Assembly (NCBI GenBank): GCA_030591685.1
Contig: JAUVAX010000012.1
Coordinates: forward strand, 1 to 62,081
Length of the DNA stretch: 62,081 bases
Direction of reading: 5' to 3'
Source: Pseudobdellovibrionaceae bacterium
GTDB lineage: Bacteria; Bdellovibrionota; Bdellovibrionia; Bdellovibrionales; UBA1609
The notes below the pieces were generated by a model, which worked only from the letters and a program-made list of their open reading frames with translations, did not search any database and had not been told where the DNA came from. Within the stretch, counting starts at the first letter, position 1. Each line of letters starts with the position of its first letter. Below, piece after piece: positions 21,870 through 33,200 of this stretch. Position numbers and translations under genes: made by a program.

Positions 21870-22058
21870 ATGAAAAAAATTAAAAATACCATCAGTCGCC
21901 TCATAAAAGATGAATCTGGACAGGGCGCTACTGAGTACATTTTACTTCTTGTCGTCGTTGTGGGCCTCGTTGTTGCCTTTGGACCAAAAATTAAAGGCCT
22001 TGTTGAGGGTAAACTTAATGAAGTCTCGAGCTTATTTGGCGAGGTCACTGGTAAATAA
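21870..22058 (+). CDS. flp: Flp/Tad major pilin
   Basis: 62 aa. Charged leader MKKIKNTISRLIKDESG, cleavage between Gly17 and Gln18, then QGATEY with Glu22 and Tyr23 (the Flp motif) and a hydrophobic helix of Leu and Val. The mature pilin would be about 45 residues. It polymerises into the Flp pilus through the TadA/TadB machine encoded downstream. Shine-Dalgarno AGGAG lies eight bases before the ATG. Confidence 0.92.
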   Translation: MKKIKNTISRLIKDESGQGATEYILLLVVVVGLVVAFGPKIKGLVEGKLNEVSSLFGEVTGK

Positions 22059-22364: not shown

Positions 22365-22886
22365 GTGTTTTTTGAAACTCAAGCCTCATGGCTTTATTTA
22401 ATTGCACCCAGTGCCGTTTTAATTGCGGGCCTTATTGATGACCTTCGATCAAAAAAAATTCATAATAAATTAGTTATTTTGCTTCTTGCGCTTGCTGCGA
22501 TTTATCAATTTGTAGTTTTTGGTCAACCCGGCCTTGTTAATGGGCTTATGGCGAGTGGCTTTGCTTTGCTGATTTTTTTACCCATGGTGCTTTCACGAAT
22601 GCTCGGCGCCGGGGATATGAAACTCATGCTCGCTTTTGGTATGAGCACCCTGTGGATCAATGTTTTATGGACCAGTGTTTATGCCATTATTTGGGGCGCT
22701 GTTTTTGGAATACTCCATGCTCTGTTACAAAAAAAATTCAAGCACTTGTTTTTTAACACCATCAATTTAGTCGCCTCAAAGGGCAAGGTCTCCTCTGAAA
22801 CACAAAAAATCCCCTTTACCGTCCCTCTTTTACTCGGCTGGATCCATCAAATTATAGCCTCCTCTACAAATGGGGGGTTGTGGTGA
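22365..22886 (+). CDS. tadV: Prepilin peptidase TadV/CpaA (A24 family)
   Basis: 173 aa, multi-spanning. Two catalytic aspartates: Asp25 in GLIDDLRSKKIHN and Asp84 in GAGDMKLM (GxGD motif). It cuts the leader from Flp prepilins at the inner membrane and is the size of the short CpaA/TadV peptidases without the methylase domain. GTG start. It overlaps the following minor pilin by four bases. Confidence 0.9.
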   Translation: MFFETQASWLYLIAPSAVLIAGLIDDLRSKKIHNKLVILLLALAAIYQFVVFGQPGLVNGLMASGFALLIFLPMVLSRMLGAGDMKLMLAFGMSTLWINVLWTSVYAIIWGAVFGILHALLQKKFKHLFFNTINLVASKGKVSSETQKIPFTVPLLLGWIHQIIASSTNGGLW

Positions 22887-23143
22887 ATAAACTCAACTCT
22901 CATCGAGGGCAAATGGCCGTTGAGGCGGTTTTAATTTTAACGCTGCTTTTAGGTGTTTCAGTTATGGTTTCTAATTATTTTAAAAGCGAGGAACTTTTAA
23001 TTCGTTTTATACAGAACCCCTGGGGAAAGGTCTCTGGGCTCATTCAAAACGGCCAGTTTTTGCCGCCAGAGGACTCTTTACACTTACATCCAAATAACCG
23101 TGACACACGTTTCTTGTCAGTCATAGGGGAGGACCCTAAATGA
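22883..23143 (+). CDS. Minor pilin-like protein 1 of the tad operon
   Basis: 86 aa from GTG at 22883, chosen because GGGGGG (22872-22877) then has five-base spacing; a GTG three bases earlier is the alternative. Prepilin-like start RG/QMAVEA with Gly9 and Glu14 followed by a hydrophobic helix. TadE/TadF-type minor pilins share this layout. The remainder is short and polar. It overlaps the next gene by four bases. Confidence 0.65.
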   Translation: MNKLNSHRGQMAVEAVLILTLLLGVSVMVSNYFKSEELLIRFIQNPWGKVSGLIQNGQFLPPEDSLHLHPNNRDTRFLSVIGEDPK

Positions 23144-23775
23144 GTTTACGCAATAACCGAGGGTTTTTAGCTGCTGATTTTATTTTCTCTATGATTTTAG
23201 TTATGGGGTTTGGCTCTATATTATTTGCGGTCTCTCTAACGCTAACAACTGTTGAAATCACTCAGTACATTGCCTTTTCAACAGCAAGAACTTTTTTTGC
23301 AGGGCATATAAACTCCGAGACTCAAGGTGAAATCGCGATTCAGAAGTACGTCTCTCTTGTTGAAAGCGATGCTTTTGGACCTCTTCTTCATAGCTCTTGG
23401 TTTGATGCCCCCCCCCTCGGCCCGTCGGGAATGGGAGATCATACAACCTCTGGCAAGCACAATTTAAGTCATGGGGCTACTTATAGCCCCTCAAGTAGCG
23501 GCTTAAATATGTTTTATGGAATTTCGGTAAACTTGCTTATGCCCTTGATGGCTTTAAACGTCCCCTTTTTTGGCCCAACAAGTAGAAATTTGGATGAGCC
23601 TAGTGGTGGCTTTAGTTCTGTTTTAACGGCCTTTTTGGGGCGTGAGATCACTCAAAAAAAATGTTCTGAATTTGTACGCGATCGCCTTTCACGTATTTTA
23701 ACTCTTCATAGCAGTTATAACACCGCCTCAAGTGGGTCTACAAATTACACGCCGGTGGTGGACAATGGCTGTTAG
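23140..23775 (+). CDS. Minor pilin-like protein 2 of the tad operon
   Basis: 211 aa. Starts MSLRNNRG/FLAADF, a prepilin-like site in which the usual Glu at +5 is Asp13, then a hydrophobic helix to about residue 36. A Gly/Ser/Pro-rich middle and a C-terminal part with Cys near 172 and at the last residue (211) suggest a secreted domain, possibly disulphide-bonded. It probably corresponds to a TadE/TadG-like minor pilin. It overlaps the previous gene by four bases and the next by eleven. Confidence 0.65.
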   Translation: MSLRNNRGFLAADFIFSMILVMGFGSILFAVSLTLTTVEITQYIAFSTARTFFAGHINSETQGEIAIQKYVSLVESDAFGPLLHSSWFDAPPLGPSGMGDHTTSGKHNLSHGATYSPSSSGLNMFYGISVNLLMPLMALNVPFFGPTSRNLDEPSGGFSSVLTAFLGREITQKKCSEFVRDRLSRILTLHSSYNTASSGSTNYTPVVDNGC

Positions 23776-24262
23776 AACCACTATTTTGGCCCCTATCAAA
23801 ACCCCAAAGGCTAAAAATAATAAGGGCATGGCCACTTTAGAGAGCCTGCCTTTACTCGTCATCTTTGTTATTCTCACAAGCTACACCATGGGTTTTTTTG
23901 GAGTTATACACACGGCTATACTACACAGTATAGCCGCCAGAACTTACGCCCTTGAAACCTTTAGAAATCGCTCTGATTTAACTTTCTTTAGGCATGATGG
24001 TAATGAGCCTCCAAAACAGTTTCAAACAAAAGGCTTTCGACTGCATACTATTGTTGAGCGCTCTGCTGGCGAATCTGTGTTTCCTGCCACAAAACGAGAC
24101 ATTGTCTTTGGGCGACCCCTGCCCCAGGTAAACCATAACAAGCCTAACGTTCATAATGAAAAAATTCATGATATCAAACCGAGAAACCGATTAGGCGTTA
24201 ATCCCGTGTGGATCATGGTGTCTTATGGCATCTGCATAAATGCAACCTGTGGCGATAATTAA
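23765..24262 (+). CDS. Minor pilin-like protein 3 of the tad operon
   Basis: 165 aa from ATG at 23765, which has GGTGG shortly before it; an in-frame ATG at 23732 lies deeper inside the upstream gene and is less likely. Prepilin-like site KG/MATLES with Gly21 and Glu26, then a hydrophobic helix. The C-terminal part ends with two cysteines in CINATCGDN. Third of three consecutive minor pilin-like genes. Confidence 0.65.
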   Translation: MAVRTTILAPIKTPKAKNNKGMATLESLPLLVIFVILTSYTMGFFGVIHTAILHSIAARTYALETFRNRSDLTFFRHDGNEPPKQFQTKGFRLHTIVERSAGESVFPATKRDIVFGRPLPQVNHNKPNVHNEKIHDIKPRNRLGVNPVWIMVSYGICINATCGDN

Positions 24263-24273
24263 GGAGTCCAGTA

Positions 24274-25089
24274 GTGAACCCCAATGAGACACGTACATTA
24301 TGGATTTCAGTTTTTGCAGCTCTTTTTGCTGTATTTTTACTTTATAGCTATACCCAAGAAAAATCAGATCAACTTACCCGAGATTTTGGCACCATGAGTA
24401 ATGTTGTTGTTGCCGTTAAGGACATTAATGAAATGCAGTCCATTGATGAGACCATGCTCCGCATTGAGGAGAGACCAAGTACCTTTGTCCACGTAGATGC
24501 GCTCAATAACCCCGAACTGGCTGTGGGAAAGGTCGCTCTCGCTCCTATTAAAAAAAATGAGGTCTTATTACAATCAAAAATGCTACTCCCGGGCCCCGTA
24601 ACGGGCCTCTCACTGCAAGTAAATCCCGGCAAAAGAGCCGTCACCATACCCATTGACGAAATGCGAGGGGTGGGCAAGCTCATTAAACCTGGGGACAGAG
24701 TTGATATTGTCGGCGCTCTCACTGTTGGCTCTGGTGTTAACCAAAAAAAGGAAGTTCGCACTCTCTTACAAGACATCCCTATTTTAGCAACAGGGGTGCG
24801 TATTGCTAACGAATTACCACGACTCGTTGAACCCAGTGGTAAAAACTTAATTATTAAAAACTTAAGGTCTGACACCAATTTTAACAACGTCACTGTTGAG
24901 GTTTCACCAAAGCAAGCACAGAGTTTGATTTACATTTTATCAACCTCTCCAGGGTCATTATTTTTAACCCTAAGACACCCCAGTGACGTCGGGCCAAAGG
25001 CCAATTTACCAACTACGACTGTAGAGTCTTTGAGGGGTAACTTTAGAAGTGCCTCCACCTATAAGAAAACAAAGAAAAGAAGAAGGTGA
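24274..25089 (+). CDS. cpaB: Flp pilus assembly protein CpaB/RcpC
   Basis: 271 aa, GTG start with AAGGAG seven bases before. N-terminal membrane anchor, then a SAF domain (VVVAVKDINEMQSID) and the RcpC-type domain (RAVTIPIDEMRGVGKLIKPGDRVDIVG). CpaB is a periplasmic part of the Tad apparatus that works with the secretin. A Lys/Arg tail closes the protein. Confidence 0.9.
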   Translation: MNPNETRTLWISVFAALFAVFLLYSYTQEKSDQLTRDFGTMSNVVVAVKDINEMQSIDETMLRIEERPSTFVHVDALNNPELAVGKVALAPIKKNEVLLQSKMLLPGPVTGLSLQVNPGKRAVTIPIDEMRGVGKLIKPGDRVDIVGALTVGSGVNQKKEVRTLLQDIPILATGVRIANELPRLVEPSGKNLIIKNLRSDTNFNNVTVEVSPKQAQSLIYILSTSPGSLFLTLRHPSDVGPKANLPTTTVESLRGNFRSASTYKKTKKRRR

Positions 25090-25095
25090 CCACTT

Positions 25096-26583
25096 GTGAA
25101 AACTCTTTTTAAAAACTTTATTTTTGCCTTTGTTTTTGCCTCGTTTGTCGCTCCAACGGTGCTTTTGGCAAAAAGGAGAAATCACCCTTACAAGTATATC
25201 TCCCTCTATGTCGGGGTTTATCACGATGAAAAAATACCCGGAGCACCTGGTAAAATTAGTAAATCAGGGACCTTTTCAAAGTATACAAAAATTAACTATT
25301 CTTCTTCTCGAAAAAACTTACGGTTTTACCCCACTAAGCCAGGGCTTGTTACGCTTTTTATAAAGTCCCCAAGCTCAGGAAAAATACTTTATGAGTTTCG
25401 ACTCGAAATACAAAAAACACGACTCAACAAAGTGGCCAAAGAAATTCGTGAACTTATACGTGGGGTTGATGGCATTACAATAAAAATTATCAACTCAAAG
25501 GTTATTGTTGATGGTCAAATTTTATTGCCCCGAGATATGGCTCGAATTCACAATGTAGTTCGACAGTATGGTGATTTAGCTTCGTCACTTGTGACCCTCA
25601 GCCCCTTGGCTCAAAGAAAAATTGCCCAACTCATTGAGCGCGACATCAATAATCCAGAAGTCACAGTACGAGCCATTAACAATAAGTTTATCCTTGAAGG
25701 GACCGTTGACAGCTCTTTACAAAGAGATCAGGCTCAAACTATTGCAGAGGCCTATGTCCCTGACGTTATTATCAACCAAGCCGTTGCCGAAAAAAAGGTC
25801 CTCGCCAAAAGGTCAAAGCCCGTTATAAATTTAATTATTATTCGTGAGGCCAAGGCCGCGGGACCTAAAAAAATAATACAAATGGTCATACATTATGTAG
25901 AGCTTCAAAAGGACTACGGAAAGAGTTTTCGTTTTCAATGGACCCCAGACCTTGGTGATGGTTCAGCTGTTTCTTTTAGCACCGGGAGTCGTGGCGCGGC
26001 CGGAGTGGTCTCCTCAATTACAGGGACCATCTCAAATTTACTTCCTAAGTTAAATTGGGCTAAGGAGCACGGTCACGCTCGCATTTTACAATCCTCAAGT
26101 ATTCTTGTTGAAGATGGTCAGCTTGGTAACGTTAACTCAGTTCAAAAGGTTCCCTATAGAAATATCACAAAAGAAGGTCTAGCCTCTACTAGCTTTGAAG
26201 AAACTGGTATCAGAGCCTCTATTACACCGCAAATTATTGGGGACCGCTCTGATTCAGTAAAACTAAAAATGAACTTCTCGGTAAAGGCTTTAATTGGGAT
26301 CACCCCTGCGGGGCCCCTCACCTCTCAGAGGGAAATTCAGTCAGTTATCGTTGTGCGAAGTGGGCAAAGTGCAGCTGTTGGGGGGCTCATCTCTAGTGAA
26401 AAAGGGACCAGTTACAATAAATTACCCACAAACGTCAGCTCAAACCCTTTGTTCTCGTTATACTCATCAAAAACATTTAGAAACAACAAGAGTCAGTTTG
26501 TTGTCTTTGTCACCCCATTGATTAAGAGTTCTGCCAGCGAGGGTTCTGATAAAATTAAGCGAAAATTCAGGCTCCGCAAATAA
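25096..26583 (+). CDS. cpaC: Tad secretin CpaC/RcpA
   Basis: 495 aa with an N-terminal signal peptide, a pilus-assembly N-terminal domain, BON-like segments (about 110-250: GITIKIINSKVIVDGQI, then VTVRAINNKFILEGTV), and a C-terminal secretin domain (about 330-480: ILVEDGQLGNVNSVQKVPY, QSAAVGGLISSEKG, FVVFVTPLI). It forms the outer-membrane channel for the Flp pilus. Six bases after cpaB. The signal region is preceded by GTG as start. Confidence 0.93.
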   Translation: MKTLFKNFIFAFVFASFVAPTVLLAKRRNHPYKYISLYVGVYHDEKIPGAPGKISKSGTFSKYTKINYSSSRKNLRFYPTKPGLVTLFIKSPSSGKILYEFRLEIQKTRLNKVAKEIRELIRGVDGITIKIINSKVIVDGQILLPRDMARIHNVVRQYGDLASSLVTLSPLAQRKIAQLIERDINNPEVTVRAINNKFILEGTVDSSLQRDQAQTIAEAYVPDVIINQAVAEKKVLAKRSKPVINLIIIREAKAAGPKKIIQMVIHYVELQKDYGKSFRFQWTPDLGDGSAVSFSTGSRGAAGVVSSITGTISNLLPKLNWAKEHGHARILQSSSILVEDGQLGNVNSVQKVPYRNITKEGLASTSFEETGIRASITPQIIGDRSDSVKLKMNFSVKALIGITPAGPLTSQREIQSVIVVRSGQSAAVGGLISSEKGTSYNKLPTNVSSNPLFSLYSSKTFRNNKSQFVVFVTPLIKSSASEGSDKIKRKFRLRK

Positions 26584-26665: not shown

Positions 26666-28921
26666 TTGGCGATTCATAAAAACTGTCATGTTATTGGTAT
26701 CACTGGCGGCAAGGGCGGGGTTGGTAAAAGTGTTTTTGCCGCTAACTTAGCCTGTGCGCTGATGAACGAAATGAGGGCACGCGTCTTGCTTGTTGACTTG
26801 GACTCTCGCAGCGCTGGGGATCAAAATATAATTACTGGTATTCGACCTCAAAAGACCGTCTCTGACCTAGTGCAGTTTTCCGGAGGCTTAAATCAACAGG
26901 CTCTAGGCACTATGTTAAATCGTCACCCCTCAGGCTTACAATATTTAGCGGCAGTGTTAAGCCCTGACCAAACTCTCATAGCAAAGCCTGAGGTTTTTAA
27001 AAAACAGCTTGGACTCATCAGCTCACATTTTCAGTACATCATCATTGACCTAGGCAATGACATCGGCGCCCTACAAATGGCCGCTATGGAGGATGCGAGC
27101 TCAGTACTTATCGTAACAACCCCTGAGGTGCTCGTTGTTAACCAAACAAAAAAACTACTCAATGAGCTTTATGCTGCCACCTTCCCTGCTGACATGTTTC
27201 AAATCGTAGTTAATAAGACCTCTAAATCAGGGATCGCCCCACAAGTTATTGGACAAAACCTCAGAAGGCCCATTATTGGGTCTATTCCACAAGATGATGT
27301 GACCACAATGACCGCTTTACAAAGAGCGACGCCTTTTATTTTATCACCACAAAAAAATCAGCTTTCTGCGGCTTACAGCAATGTTGTACGAAACCTAACT
27401 GGTGGTATTTTACAAAAACTAAAAGCGCTCTCAAGGCCTACCGGCACTCAACCGTTACAAAAAGGCGACACCCAAGCCCTAAGTGGTCAAGCCAATGCCT
27501 CCACCTCAATGAAAGCAAAAGGGGGCAAGGAACTTAATGCTAAAACCCTTTTAAAAATTCAGATTCATAAAGAACTCATTAATAAAATGGATTTAAAAAA
27601 AGACCTCTCAAACTCTGAAGGAGACCCCAACAAAGAGGCGCAGTTGCGCCAAAAAACTCTTCAAACCATCACTCAAATCATCGACAAATACGGCAAGGGG
27701 CTTGCTCGTGATGAGCGGTCACAAATTATAAAACAAGTTCTGGATGAATCCCTCGGGCTTGGCGCCCTTGAAGAGCTCCTGGCAGACCCCTCGGTTACTG
27801 AAATCATGGTTAACGGATGTGAAAAAGTCTTTGTTGAAAAAAGCGGAAAACTACAACTGAGTAACGTTGATTTTACCTCCAACCTACAGCTTGAAAATAT
27901 AATAAGCCGTATTATCAGCCCCCTCGGTCGACAAATAAGTAAAAAAACACCCTACGTAGATGCGCGCCTCGCTGATGGCAGCAGGGTAAATGCAATTATT
28001 GAACCTTTAAGCATTGACGGCCCCGCTATTACAATTAGAAAGTTTGCTAAAGAGCGCGTCACCGCTGAGCACTATATAAAATGGGGATCTATAACAAGAC
28101 CTATGATTGATTTTTTACGCATATGTGTTGAGCAGGGCTTAAATTTAATAATTTCTGGCGGCACGGGGACTGGTAAAACAACTCTTTTAAATGTCTTATC
28201 AAGCTATATCCCCTCTACAGACCGCATTATCACTGTAGAGGACGCCGCCGAGCTACAGCTTAATCAAGAGCATGTTGTGCGACTTGAAACTAAACCTGCC
28301 AACACTGAAGACTCCTCTGAAATTACGATTCGAGATTTAATTAAAAACTCTCTACGTATGAGACCTGACCGTATTATTGTGGGTGAGTGTCGCGACGGGG
28401 CCGCTCTCGATATGCTAACAGCCATGAATACGGGCCACGATGGGTCTATGACAACGGTTCACTCTAACTCTCCAAGAGAAGCCATCGCGCGTATTGAGAC
28501 CCTTTGCCTAATGGCAGGCATGAGCCTGCCCGTTAAAGCTATTCGAGATCAAATTGCAGGCGCCGTCCATTTAATCATTCAAATTAGTCGCTTGAGCGAT
28601 GGCTCTCGTAAAGTGACGAACATAACTGAAGTCGTCGGAATGCAGGGCGACACCGTAACTCTCCAGGAGATTTTTGCCTATAAAGAAACTGGGTTTGATA
28701 AAAACAGAAAAATCATTGGACAGTTTCAAGCCAAAGGCCTCATACCCACATTTATTGAGCGCTTTGAGCAAAGGGGGGTTGTAATCCCTAAAAAACTTTT
28801 TACTGGAGGCGATGTCAGCCCCGCATCTGACAATGAAAACAAAAATACTCCCCAAAGAGCCCCTGTGCGCGCCATGCCTCGAAGGAATAGCCCGGCGAAA
28901 AAAGCGAGCGGTGAGGATTAA
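26666..28921 (+). CDS. TadZ-TadA fusion: ParA-like ATPase joined to pilus-assembly ATPase CpaF
   Basis: 751 aa. The N-terminal part (about 1-255) is a MinD/ParA-like ATPase with deviant Walker A GKGGVGKS (15-22) and VDLDSRSAGDQN, as in TadZ/CpaE; the receiver-like domain of classical CpaE is absent. A Gln/Ser-rich linker (about 255-330) leads to a full CpaF/TadA secretion ATPase: Walker A GGTGTGKT (498-505), MRPDRIIVGECRDG, and HDGSMTTVHSNSPREA. The Pro/Arg/Lys tail ends the protein. TadZ normally positions the apparatus and TadA powers pilin extrusion; here both are one chain. TTG start with GGTG upstream. It is 82 bases after cpaC and two bases before tadB. Confidence 0.92.
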   Translation: MAIHKNCHVIGITGGKGGVGKSVFAANLACALMNEMRARVLLVDLDSRSAGDQNIITGIRPQKTVSDLVQFSGGLNQQALGTMLNRHPSGLQYLAAVLSPDQTLIAKPEVFKKQLGLISSHFQYIIIDLGNDIGALQMAAMEDASSVLIVTTPEVLVVNQTKKLLNELYAATFPADMFQIVVNKTSKSGIAPQVIGQNLRRPIIGSIPQDDVTTMTALQRATPFILSPQKNQLSAAYSNVVRNLTGGILQKLKALSRPTGTQPLQKGDTQALSGQANASTSMKAKGGKELNAKTLLKIQIHKELINKMDLKKDLSNSEGDPNKEAQLRQKTLQTITQIIDKYGKGLARDERSQIIKQVLDESLGLGALEELLADPSVTEIMVNGCEKVFVEKSGKLQLSNVDFTSNLQLENIISRIISPLGRQISKKTPYVDARLADGSRVNAIIEPLSIDGPAITIRKFAKERVTAEHYIKWGSITRPMIDFLRICVEQGLNLIISGGTGTGKTTLLNVLSSYIPSTDRIITVEDAAELQLNQEHVVRLETKPANTEDSSEITIRDLIKNSLRMRPDRIIVGECRDGAALDMLTAMNTGHDGSMTTVHSNSPREAIARIETLCLMAGMSLPVKAIRDQIAGAVHLIIQISRLSDGSRKVTNITEVVGMQGDTVTLQEIFAYKETGFDKNRKIIGQFQAKGLIPTFIERFEQRGVVIPKKLFTGGDVSPASDNENKNTPQRAPVRAMPRRNSPAKKASGED

Positions 28922-28923
28922 AA

Positions 28924-29802
28924 ATGAGCGCACTCTTTCAAAATGATTTGATTTTATTTATAGTGTTTGGGGTTTGTATTTTTACAGTGTCCTATTTATG
29001 GTCTGACAAAATAATTAGTTTTTTATACGACAAAAGCTTAGGGTCCAGGCAAGAGGTCATTGAGCTTATGGATAAAATGTTTATCGAAACTGATAAGCAA
29101 AAAATTACTTTAACTCTTTTACTTTTAAGCTTTGGGCTGGGAGCAATTGTTTTTTTATTGTTCTGGCCTAACGTTGTTATTGGTCTCATTATTGGATCTG
29201 GGGTTACAATTGTTGGCTGGTCTATACCAAAAATTATTATGCGCTCCTTATGGGAAAAGCGCTGCCATAGAATTGTAGCTCAAATGGTGGATGGCATGAC
29301 TATTATGTCAAACGGGTTAAAGTCAGGGTTAAGTCTACAGCAATCCCTTGATCGTGTAACAGAAAACTTAACAGGCCCCCTTGCTCAGGAATTCCAACTT
29401 ATGCTTAATAAAATTCGCCTGGGGATGTCCCTTGAAGACTCTATGATTGGGTTTGCTGAGAGAATCCCAATGCCGGACGTACAAATGTTTGTCAGTGCCG
29501 TCAGCGTACTAGAAAGCACTGGGGGTAATTTGTTTGAAACGTTTTCAACTATTTCTTACACCATTCGTGAGAGACAAAAAATTCATAAAAAAATTGAAGC
29601 CATGACCGCCTCTGCAATCACCCAGGGCATTATCATCACATGTGTGCCCTTTGTTATTTTAGTTGTTTTTACGGTGATGGACCCCAATTACATAAAGCCT
29701 CTATTTACCACTGCTTTAGGCTGGTTTGCCCTAGGTTTAATGCTGGTACTACAGCTCATCGGTGGCGTTGTTATGAGAAAAATTGTTACAATAAAAGTAT
29801 AA
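28924..29802 (+). CDS. tadB: Tad pilus inner-membrane platform protein TadB
   Basis: 292 aa. Two N-terminal and two C-terminal membrane segments around a T2SSF domain (QMVDGMTIMSNGLKSGLSLQQSL, ALLVSA-like MPDVQMFVSAVSVLESTGG). It forms the platform that TadA acts on. Usually a tadC paralogue follows; here it is replaced by the Rhs-like gene, so a second F-domain protein is not encoded in this window. Confidence 0.9.
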   Translation: MSALFQNDLILFIVFGVCIFTVSYLWSDKIISFLYDKSLGSRQEVIELMDKMFIETDKQKITLTLLLLSFGLGAIVFLLFWPNVVIGLIIGSGVTIVGWSIPKIIMRSLWEKRCHRIVAQMVDGMTIMSNGLKSGLSLQQSLDRVTENLTGPLAQEFQLMLNKIRLGMSLEDSMIGFAERIPMPDVQMFVSAVSVLESTGGNLFETFSTISYTIRERQKIHKKIEAMTASAITQGIIITCVPFVILVVFTVMDPNYIKPLFTTALGWFALGLMLVLQLIGGVVMRKIVTIKV

Positions 29803-29822: not shown

Positions 29823-31499
29823 ATGAAAAAAACCCTAGTTATTGTTGTCACATTGCTTATCTCTGGCACATCAGGGGCTGTTATTGACATGAAAAACTCA
29901 AATTTTGCAGACTCATGGAGCGATATTAAGGTCCCAGGGTCAGGTTTTGAGCTGCGTATTAAAAGGACCTATAACAGCCGGTCACTTTTTAACGGAGTTT
30001 TCGGATATGGGTGGTGCTCTGATTACGAAACTAAACTAGAAATCACAGCCGAAAGTGGTCTTCTGTTAACAGAGTGCGGTGGCGGGTTGCAGGTGAACTA
30101 TACTCAGTCCATTGAGGGTTCTAAAAATATTGAGTCGACCATATCAAAAATAATTTCAGAAATTAAAAAACGAAACAAAGCCATGAGTGCTGCAGAGCTG
30201 AACAAACTCTCAAAAGATCTCGTTAATGATCAGTATTTAAGAATTGCTTTCGTTAAGAGATTAAGCCTTCAAGGAAAGGTTGAGGCCAATAAAATATATC
30301 GCGCCAACGGGAGAGAGTCAGAACATATTATATTAAAAAATAATTTTTATACTAGAACGCTCGCCAATGGTACCATGCAAAGATTTAACCTTAAAGGGCA
30401 GCTCACACGTGTCTACGACAAAAATAGAAATTTTGTGAAAATTGAGTATAAAAATAGTAAGCTCCATAGAATTATTGATAACTCCGGAAAGCAGTTGAAC
30501 TTTGTATACTCTCGGGGCTCAAAAGCCCTACAACAAATCAAAGGGCCAAACGGCATCAGCGCCACATATCGATTTAACGGTGAAAACCTCGCCTACTCCA
30601 AAAACCAGTGGCATACGGCTTATAAGTACAAATATGATAAGTTGCATAATTTAACTCGCATTATTTTCCCCGACGGTAGTTTTAAAAAGCTGACCTACAA
30701 CACTGACCGAGATTGGGTGACTCAATTTAGAAACCGTAAGGGCTGTGTTGAGACTTATAAATATAAAATTAACAAAAAAGCAAAATATGACCACTACTGG
30801 TCAACTGTTGTTAAAAAATGTGGCAATAAAATTACAAACAAAAGTACTTATGAGTTTAAATACAAAGGGCTAAAGGGCTCTAAAGCTTCATTTTTAGCCA
30901 ACGTAAACTCTAATGTAAATGGCGACAAGACCTCTATTGTTTATCATTCTATATTTGGTAAGCCGACAAGGGTCTCCCGAAATGGGCTTATTACTACTTA
31001 TAAATATTACGACAATGGTTTTGTTAAAAGAAAGCAGCAACCCTATCGGCACTACTACTATGAGTATAATAACACCTGCTCAAAGGTTTCTTCTGTACAA
31101 ACTAAATACTTTGGCCCCTTTAAAAAGAATCAAAAAAAGCGAAAGGCCGTAAAAACCCGGCTTTCAAAATTTTACTACGACAAGGCAAAGTGTAATTTAA
31201 AAAGAGCTAAAAATTCTGCTGGGCAAACCGTTCAGCTTAGCTACGACTCTAGAGGCCGTATATCAAAAATTATCGATCAAACAAAAAAAGTAGTCGCCAT
31301 TAAATACGAAAGCCGCTTTGGAAAACCAGAGCTCGTACAGCGGCCGGGGCTTGGCAGCCTTAAAATCAGTTACAACTCGCGTGGAGAAATCGATAAGTAC
31401 GACAGCAAACAAGGGGCTCAAGTGGCTGTACAGGTAGCTAGTATTTTAAATAATTTATTAGAACTTATTTCTCCAGCCACAACAGACCTGTCGCTGTAA
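29823..31499 (+). CDS. Exported Rhs/YD-repeat protein, hit-locus Bd0109-like
   Basis: 558 aa from ATG at 29823, supported by GAGAGGACC just upstream and a clear signal peptide (MKKTLVIVVTLLISGTSG). The N-terminal part has the Rhs opening (RTYNSRSLFNGVFGYGWCSDY), then YD-like repeats (GQLTRVYDKNRNFVKIEY, HNLTRIIFPDGSFKKLTYN, GRISKIIDQTKKVVAIKY). There is no C-terminal toxin domain. In Bdellovibrio the exported YD-repeat protein Bd0109 lies next to flp/tad genes and to Bd0108; mutations there allow prey-independent growth, with links to pilus state. Position and features match. Orthology is inferred, not tested. Confidence 0.75.
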   Translation: MKKTLVIVVTLLISGTSGAVIDMKNSNFADSWSDIKVPGSGFELRIKRTYNSRSLFNGVFGYGWCSDYETKLEITAESGLLLTECGGGLQVNYTQSIEGSKNIESTISKIISEIKKRNKAMSAAELNKLSKDLVNDQYLRIAFVKRLSLQGKVEANKIYRANGRESEHIILKNNFYTRTLANGTMQRFNLKGQLTRVYDKNRNFVKIEYKNSKLHRIIDNSGKQLNFVYSRGSKALQQIKGPNGISATYRFNGENLAYSKNQWHTAYKYKYDKLHNLTRIIFPDGSFKKLTYNTDRDWVTQFRNRKGCVETYKYKINKKAKYDHYWSTVVKKCGNKITNKSTYEFKYKGLKGSKASFLANVNSNVNGDKTSIVYHSIFGKPTRVSRNGLITTYKYYDNGFVKRKQQPYRHYYYEYNNTCSKVSSVQTKYFGPFKKNQKKRKAVKTRLSKFYYDKAKCNLKRAKNSAGQTVQLSYDSRGRISKIIDQTKKVVAIKYESRFGKPELVQRPGLGSLKISYNSRGEIDKYDSKQGAQVAVQVASILNNLLELISPATTDLSL

Positions 31500-31512
31500 G
31501 GAGCATATTATT

Positions 31513-31869
31513 ATGAAATTATCTATAGTCGGACTCTTACTTTTAGTTGGCCCATTCGCTTTTGCTTCGAGCGGACAGGACCTTGCCAAAGAAAAACTCG
31601 AAATGTATAAGCAACGATGTAGCGGCTACAATGAAGGCAACAAAGCTAATAGTTCTTTTGTGCTTTGCCGTGATTACAAATTGTACGAGGGCAAACTTGT
31701 TCCTGAGGACCCCGCGCACAAGTCAGAGGCGGCCATTGAAAATCACCCAGGCAACGAGCACTGCTGCCTTGTTGACGGGACACAAACCAACAACTCTACC
31801 TTTAGTGTCAACCCAAATCAATCCAAGGGCAGCAACACCACGACAGAGAAAGAGCATGGAGTGAAGTAA
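31513..31869 (+). CDS. Small exported cysteine protein, hit-locus Bd0108-like
   Basis: 118 aa with signal peptide (MKLSIVGLLLLVGPFAFA), then a short polar mature part with Cys36, Cys52, Cys84 and Cys85 and a Ser/Thr/Asn-rich tail. AAGGAG overlaps the stop of the Rhs-like gene, so the pair is one unit. In Bdellovibrio the protein in this place (Bd0108, about 100 aa) is the main site of host-independence mutations. Size, export and position agree. I see no long direct repeat in the coding sequence like the one that promotes deletion in that species. Confidence 0.65.
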   Translation: MKLSIVGLLLLVGPFAFASSGQDLAKEKLEMYKQRCSGYNEGNKANSSFVLCRDYKLYEGKLVPEDPAHKSEAAIENHPGNEHCCLVDGTQTNNSTFSVNPNQSKGSNTTTEKEHGVK

Positions 31870-32246
31870 GAGCTTGCCACTAAGGCTGCACCCTTCGTTT
31901 TTAAAGCTGCAGCTTAATTTTATGCTTTCACTTCGGCCCTCTAGTGAATTGATCGTTAATCACAAATTTTCAAAGGCTTTAATCGGCGTATTTTTTACAC
32001 CCAGTGACTAGTTTTTTATCATTCAATCCTTTTTTTAGTTTGGTATTTTTTTTATACTACATTTTGTAGCCTTCACAATTTCAAGATTAAATCTGTATTT
32101 AACTAGTAAATTCAACCCGTTAGGCAGGGGCCCCTTTGCTAAAACTGACAAGTTTTTAGTCACTCTTGGGCCTGCTGTGCCTCGCGATTTCGGCACACTA
32201 ATTGCCTTATAGGTTTGTGAAAGATCACTCACACGAAAAGGCTTAA
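31870..32246. other. 377-base gap after the hit-like pair
   Basis: No supported gene on either strand. Contains a perfect 12-base palindrome AAGCTGCAGCTT at 31904-31915 soon after the stop, which could act as a weak terminator or a protein site, and long T-runs around 32033-32052. Promoter for the downstream gene is expected near its 3' end. Confidence 0.4.
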
Positions 32247-33200
32247 ATGATGAACGTATATACAGTTGATATTACAAATAAAAATAAAATAGATAAAAAA
32301 TTTGAGGGTAGCTATAAAAAGCTACAAAAAATCACTCAGTCGCATTATGGGGGAGCATTGTTATATAGAGCCTTTACTACAGAGCCTTCAAAGAGCGAAA
32401 AAACACTTCAAGGGCTTTTAGCTAAAAACAATCCTCTTTCTTTAGGCAATAAAACAATGTTTCCGGTTTTTGTTGATGAGCAAATGACCGGTTTTTGTGA
32501 GGTTGAGACTTACAAAAAAATGAACTCTTTGGGTCAAAAAAGAATTCAAAATTTAATTGATCTATTACTCGTTCATAGTATTAAAAACTCAAGGTCACTC
32601 CAGAAGTTACAGCAAAGTGAAAAATCGCTGGGAGAACCACAAAATACAAGTAGCAATGTTATTTATTTAAAGGACTATGTTCATATAACGGCCCAAAAAA
32701 CGCCCTCATTGCCCGAAAAATACAGATTGGGGTCTTTTAAAAAAGATTTTAATATTAATTTGCCCTGCACTGTCTTTTCGCGTGACCCTGAAGAGTCTTT
32801 TAAAATGGCGCGCGAAATACATGACCAAACAGATCGCTTTGCCTTTTTACGAATAAATGACCTCGACACAAAAGCCCTAGAAAAAGAGGGGCTAAACTCC
32901 CTCGGGCCCGTGAGTATATTTATACCTGAACTGGCGGCCTTAATGAGCGCCGAGGTGCGTTTGATTGAGCGCTTTTTTGCTTCAGAAGCGCGGACTAAAA
33001 ACTCACCACTTATTATTGCAGCCACAAAATATACCCTTAAAAACTTAAACGAACTTCAAATTATTAACACTGACGCGCTTAAGTCTTTATCCCTAATACA
33101 ACTTAATATGAAAAAGAACTTTACCTATTATAAAAGAGCTGGCCTTATGGACTTTATCTTGGACTCAATGACTAAAAAAAATTTAGATCATTTAATCTAA
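32247..33200 (+). CDS. Conserved-looking protein of unknown function
   Basis: 317 aa, cytoplasmic (no signal or membrane segment). The middle of the N-terminal half (FPVFVDEQMTGFCEVETYKKM) is GAF-like in feel, and the C-terminal half (PLIIAATKYTLKNLNELQII) faintly resembles a degenerate sigma-54 activator ATPase, but no Walker motif is present, so both are weak. It starts with a double ATG (32247 or 32250) after AAAGG. It stands alone between the hit-like pair and amgK. I cannot assign a function. Confidence 0.6.
   Translation: MMNVYTVDITNKNKIDKKFEGSYKKLQKITQSHYGGALLYRAFTTEPSKSEKTLQGLLAKNNPLSLGNKTMFPVFVDEQMTGFCEVETYKKMNSLGQKRIQNLIDLLLVHSIKNSRSLQKLQQSEKSLGEPQNTSSNVIYLKDYVHITAQKTPSLPEKYRLGSFKKDFNINLPCTVFSRDPEESFKMAREIHDQTDRFAFLRINDLDTKALEKEGLNSLGPVSIFIPELAALMSAEVRLIERFFASEARTKNSPLIIAATKYTLKNLNELQIINTDALKSLSLIQLNMKKNFTYYKRAGLMDFILDSMTKKNLDHLI

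Follow-up and report, generated by a model that had tools for sequence, protein, structure and literature searches.

No genetic handle on a predator's commitment to growth is better known than the hit locus, and one of its genes, bd0108, has to our knowledge been described as unique to Bdellovibrio. Is the gene order found beside a tad operon in an uncultured member of Bdellovibrionales the same locus, and does its presence tell how the organism lives? The window analysed here is a stretch of 62,081 nucleotides from a Pseudobdellovibrionaceae bacterium (family UBA1609), one contig of a 2.66 Mb assembly. Its initial annotation placed a hit-locus homologue at 29823-31869, in the order tadB, exported YD-repeat protein, small exported cysteine protein; ORF reading and Pfam searches confirm both the coordinates and the order. 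According to Pfam and to reading of the translations, the plus strand carries a complete tad operon, followed by the gene of the YD protein and then by that of the small protein, named small1. Signal peptides were called by eye and with a simple script rule, without a dedicated predictor. The features of the locus are listed below.

21870..22058, plus strand: Flp (type IVb) major pilin, 62 aa, with a GATEY motif (translation MKKIKNTISRLIKDESGQGATEYILLL...; motif as in PMC5430801)
22365..22886, plus strand: A24 prepilin peptidase, TadV/CpaA-like (Pfam PF01478, E 8e-10)
22880-23143, 23140-23775 and 23732-24262, plus strand: three short ORFs, by their position probably Tad minor pilin/TadE-F-like
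24274..25089, plus strand: RcpC/CpaB (Pfam PF16976, E 7e-22)
25096..26583, plus strand: RcpA/CpaC secretin (Pfam PF00263, E 1.5e-21)
26666..28921, plus strand: TadZ-TadA fusion, ParA-like domain and T2SSE ATPase (AAA_31, E 3e-14; T2SSE, E 3e-58)
28924..29802, plus strand: TadB inner-membrane platform protein (T2SSF, Pfam PF00482, E 4.9e-19)
29823..31499, plus strand: exported YD/RHS shell protein, Bd0109 orthologue, 558 aa, no toxin (Pfam, alignment, AlphaFold2, Foldseek)
31513..31869, plus strand: small1, exported, 118 aa, four cysteines, positional counterpart of Bd0108 (ORF reading, locus comparison)
31870..32190, plus strand: gap, where most relatives in the order have a second small gene, the sigma-54-driven small2 (three-frame reading, ORF caller)
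32191..32205, plus strand: sigma-54-like -24/-12 site, most likely of the next gene, 32247-33200 (upstream sites of relatives)

With hardly any room for doubt, this is the TAD/hit locus of an uncultured Bdellovibrionales lineage. The TadB-YD-small order is that of bd0110-bd0109-bd0108 in HD100, all on one strand, and this operon order is common to about 80 loci of the order. The HD100 TAD/hit locus (bd0119-bd0108) also shares with the window the Flp pilin, RcpC, the secretin, TadA and TadB, and both end with an exported YD protein followed by a small exported protein. The window, however, has an A24 peptidase of its own, and none was detected in the Bdellovibrio-genus loci compared, the HD100 operon included; the enzyme is likewise reported missing from the Bdellovibrio tad locus (PMC5430801). 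The three short ORFs at 22880..24262, which gave no match in a Pfam search, have one N-terminal hydrophobic helix apiece and syntenic homologues in most loci of the order. A single ORF (26666-28921) combines the TadZ/ParA-like domain and the TadA ATPase. Family relatives of the window lineage are UBA1609 (DCMZ01000003) and SI075_bin85. The reference genes in HD100 were pinned by the published primers Bd0108-F and 103-108sRNAF (PMC3818213): among the fetched loci they match a single one, so that its YD protein is Bd0109 and the following 101-aa ORF is Bd0108. The latter matches the NCBIfam model hit_Bd0108 at 102 bits.

The YD protein of the window is about 44-45% identical to Bd0109. In addition to a signal peptide recognized by eye, it contains only DUF6531 (E 6.9e-12) and RHS_repeat (E 1.7e-9) according to Pfam and no toxin domain, in agreement with its first description as an Rhs-like partner without toxin. 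Relatives occur almost throughout the order (135 of 141 genomes) and the phylum (202 of 212, 95%); matches across the order typically have E values of 1e-100 to 1e-200 and 35-54% identity. Matches to unrelated Rhs proteins with no synteny to Bdellovibrio were clearly not what the searches returned, and the homologue reading stands. In an alignment of 25 sequences, C65, C85, C308 and C333 are invariant. The window genome holds one full-length copy of the gene; a second, partial copy (G000:C46:3930-4748) is broken by a stop.

The AlphaFold2 model of the YD protein is confident (pLDDT 86.7), and its best solved matches in Foldseek are Rhs shells: 8qja, with a query TM of up to 0.58, and RhsA 7q97, with 0.53. 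The protein thus has the RHS beta-shell fold in common with RhsA (7q97) and VgrG-Rhs (8qja), but is about half as long, bears a signal peptide, and has neither a toxin nor a link to T6SS. Such a fold, next to a small and variable downstream gene as in Rhs toxin-immunity pairs, could also be left over from a polymorphic toxin, that is, a shell deprived of its toxin beside a relic immunity gene. We regard this as very improbable: besides the lack of a toxin domain in Pfam, the C-terminus of the YD protein is a helix conserved across the order, a full-length copy is kept phylum-wide, the small protein is exported, and small1 is under strong purifying selection in close Bdellovibrio pairs.

A plasmid search with the window's Bd0109 orthologue returned distant alphaproteobacterial and RHS matches only. 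In alphaproteobacterial loci with Bd0109-like YD proteins (L179; L190, Roseovarius aestuarii; L193, a plasmid of Sinorhizobium sp. K101), the YD gene lies at the downstream end of a large gene or close to it. The Sinorhizobium annotation of this large gene is TIR-domain, and by eye its N-terminus looks alike in L179 and L190. One short gene separates it from the YD gene in the Sinorhizobium plasmid. At these three loci neither tad genes nor a small partner were seen, and the large gene and the YD protein possibly form a defence-type pair.

The identity of the small protein is a more delicate matter. Small1 of the window starts 13 nt past the YD stop; its 118 residues include, as originally noted, four cysteines, at positions 36, 52, 84 and 85 (C84-C85 being adjacent), and a signal peptide was recognized by eye. 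A signal-peptide ORF of 59-137 aa comes right after the YD gene in 64 of 75 loci of the order and in 36 of 38 other loci of the phylum, against 1% by chance in dinucleotide shuffles. As this frequency is far above that of the shuffles and the operon order is conserved, the presence of a small ORF beside the YD gene is not due to chance.

The traits of the Bd0108 family are a CxxC disulfide, an N-terminal Bd0109-binding block, intrinsic disorder and binding of the YD partner. Compared with HD100, small1 of the window, with its 118 aa and four cysteines, has neither CxxC nor the conserved N-terminal block (NPGEDPNE in Bdellovibrio). It gives no match at E <= 1 with NCBIfam NF053838 (hit_Bd0108, predatory lifecycle switch protein; curated cut-off 40 bits), with which it shares position and general character; at the same E value, the model is matched by only 12 of 64 small1 proteins of the order. 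A cysteine pair spaced C-x(0-3)-C occurs in 50 of 74 small1 proteins of the order (14 in shuffles). [ST]EA stands ahead of a cysteine in 23 of these 74 (4 in shuffles); ten members of the set had been missed by the strict caller and were included by eye. The small1 set has a polar, low-hydrophobic composition. Profiles trained on half of the order and tested on the other half recognize it weakly (AUC 0.76 and 0.69); small1 of the window fits the SEA...CC pattern but has a poor score, 1.4 bits, under a profile trained on other families.

With an identity of 8-22% to other small1 proteins and no match to a curated family, the small ORF might be unrelated to Bd0108 and have only its position in common. 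This is unlikely in our opinion, since the 13-nt offset, strand, signal peptide, size, composition and SEA...CC pattern are all the same, and nearly every relative has a small1 gene. Judged from the sequences, small1 of the window is a positional, and probably functional, counterpart of Bd0108 outside the curated family; that it serves the function of Bd0108 appears quite likely. The proposed homology to the hit locus is therefore upheld for the locus and for Bd0109, and for Bd0108 in position only.

Two earlier descriptions of small partners can be read anew. Bd0108 of strain W was reported without its C-terminus and CxxC (PMC4267844). In the genome presumed to be that of strain W (G005; L199, L264), the bd0108 homologue is frameshifted, as in host-independent mutants, and the usual sequence, including CPEC, runs on in another frame. 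The "missing" C-terminus in this presumed strain W genome is apparently a frameshift, which may be a sequencing error. For P. exovorus, PMC4267844 favoured A11Q_2207/2208 rather than the Tad-linked homologue of Bd0109 as counterpart of the hit locus. In the presumed P. exovorus genome, the Tad-linked YD copy is followed, after 10 nt, by a signal-peptide ORF of 124 aa of its own and, farther along, by a small2; a Tad-linked small partner was apparently overlooked there.

Small2, the second signal-peptide ORF, comes next in 47 of 75 loci of the order and 18 of 38 other loci of the phylum (1-2% in shuffles). Exactly one cysteine follows residue 20 in most of them (42 of 47 and 17 of 18, respectively), and a cysteine is invariant in the alignment. 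Phylum-wide, 52 of 61 intergenic regions upstream of small2 contain a -24/-12 sigma-54 site (e.g. L075, L211, L214), where about 1.5 would be expected from a background of 0.122 per kb. The site lies mostly 25-60 nt ahead of the start and is mostly missing from loci without small2; tandem extra copies of small2, present in several genomes, have their own sites. In some other loci of the phylum, a sigma-54 site precedes the sole small ORF, so that part of what was counted as small1 may actually be small2. The idea that small1 and small2 are recognizable paralogues was rejected, as profile comparison aligned their signal peptides only.

An sRNA of the hit locus has reportedly been proposed as a growth toggle. 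Capeness et al. (PMC3818213) described a non-coding RNA at 96455-96716 of HD100, with higher levels in bd0108 mutants. Small2 of HD100, a signal-peptide ORF of 66 codons on the minus strand at 96483-96683 (L075:1784-1984) with an AAGGAG ribosome site, falls inside this sRNA, and both published RT-PCR primers map inside the ORF. The -12 GC of the sigma-54 site stands at 96744-96745, from which the 5' end of the transcript is predicted at about 96,730-96,735, roughly 12 nt further down. Between HD100 and two close relatives, substitutions at the three codon positions number 1/0/12 and 2/1/15, with synonymous to non-synonymous codons at 11:1 and 13:3 (P about 2e-5 each, the two comparisons not being independent), a mark of purifying selection on the ORF. 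Other pairs show less of this bias, e.g. 7 to 12 codons for G017-G019 (P 0.025), so that beyond its nearest relatives small2 is fast-evolving. An RNA structure test found nothing unusual in the folding of the sRNA (z -0.12). The published transcript is thus very probably the mRNA of small2, although it may be a dual-function RNA. No Bd-number for the 66-aa ORF was found in the literature; the ORF may already be listed in the current RefSeq.

Altogether, we hold it highly probable that the hit locus constitutes a secreted system of two partners, in which small2, with its one invariant cysteine and sigma-54 promoter, is ancestral in Bdellovibrionota and has the HD100 'sRNA' as its mRNA. Short secreted ORFs near Bd0109 homologues are already known from a 2023 study (PMC10469934), which describes arrays of them in activated-sludge Bdellovibrionales bins, UBA1609 included: a like phenomenon in the same family as the window. 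The main text of that study ties the arrays neither to the HD100 sRNA nor to a sigma factor.

Unlike HD100, the window has no small2: three-frame reading and the ORF caller found none in 31870-32246. The sigma-54 site at 32191 was considered as a relic of small2 and rejected. It is most likely the site of the following gene (32247-33200), because 4 of 7 checked relatives of that gene, located elsewhere in other genomes, carry a similar upstream site (L249, L250, L251, L253). The gene encodes a 317-aa protein with homologues at other places in 91 of 141 genomes of the order; nothing significant was found for it in Pfam or NCBIfam, and by eye it resembles a degenerate AAA region of a sigma-54 activator. 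Loss of small2 as a consequence of rpoN loss was also rejected, since hardly any genome lacks this gene and the window genome has it, together with an excess of sigma-54 sites (62, against 12 for the reversed pattern). An Rfam search of the window returned no family.

How could such a system work? Binding of Bd0108 to Bd0109, the essentiality of Bd0109 and the pilus and HI phenotypes are documented (PMC3818213 and PMC4267844), and Flp pilins are required for predation (PMC5430801). By analogy with the weak Bd0108-Bd0109 interaction, small1 would bind weakly to the YD shell, at the envelope or within the periplasm, and would tune the action of the shell on pilus assembly or retraction. The state of shell and pilus would then be read into the choice between growing and staying in attack phase. 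Small2, with its single cysteine and sigma-54 promoter, would complete the module in most loci of the order, possibly as a compensating or feedback partner because the HD100 'sRNA' transcript rises on Bd0108 loss; the window lineage would have kept the first partner and lost the second.

It is also conceivable, if somewhat doubtful, that the YD protein and the small ORF are parts of the Tad pilus, the former as a component of its surface or tip and the latter as the secreted chaperone of that component, and that they play no part in a growth switch in the window lineage. The locus is near-universal and tad-linked in the phylum, lineages of different lifestyles included, and is kept in two genomes of only 1.2-1.3 Mb (G096 and G097); Tad pili of Myxococcus have variable tips (PMC12075869). 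The Kil (Tad) system of Myxococcus similarly links a Tad pilus to predation, its described variable part being the minor-pilin tips. In HD100, however, bd0108 mutations alter both growth mode and piliation, and PilA, not Flp, was the pilin observed in the extruded pili (PMC3818213). The pilus/growth-signal mechanism itself, which leans on the published HD100 work, would have about even chances of being right. As a whole, an orthologous TAD/hit locus with a small partner and a pilus/growth signal is the best explanation and seems reasonably likely.

The well-studied cultured members of the order are predators, and from order membership predation is plausible for the window organism. The locus had further been taken as a sign of a predatory organism or of a retained switch to prey-independent growth, which does not follow. 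Present in 202 of 212 genomes (95%), most of them from uncultured organisms of unknown lifestyle, it is a core feature of the phylum. It also occurs in genomes of 1.2-1.8 Mb, in Ca. B. qaytius, an epibiont, and in P. exovorus, from which prey-independent variants can reportedly be obtained with difficulty or not at all (PMC4267844). Being near-universal, the locus is by itself no proof of predation or of a prey-independence switch, and is unsafe as a predation marker in metagenomes. The Bd0108-type small partner, in turn, is recast as a fast-evolving gene spread across the phylum, and the sRNA, very probably, as a messenger that encodes a secreted protein and is driven by a sigma-54 promoter.
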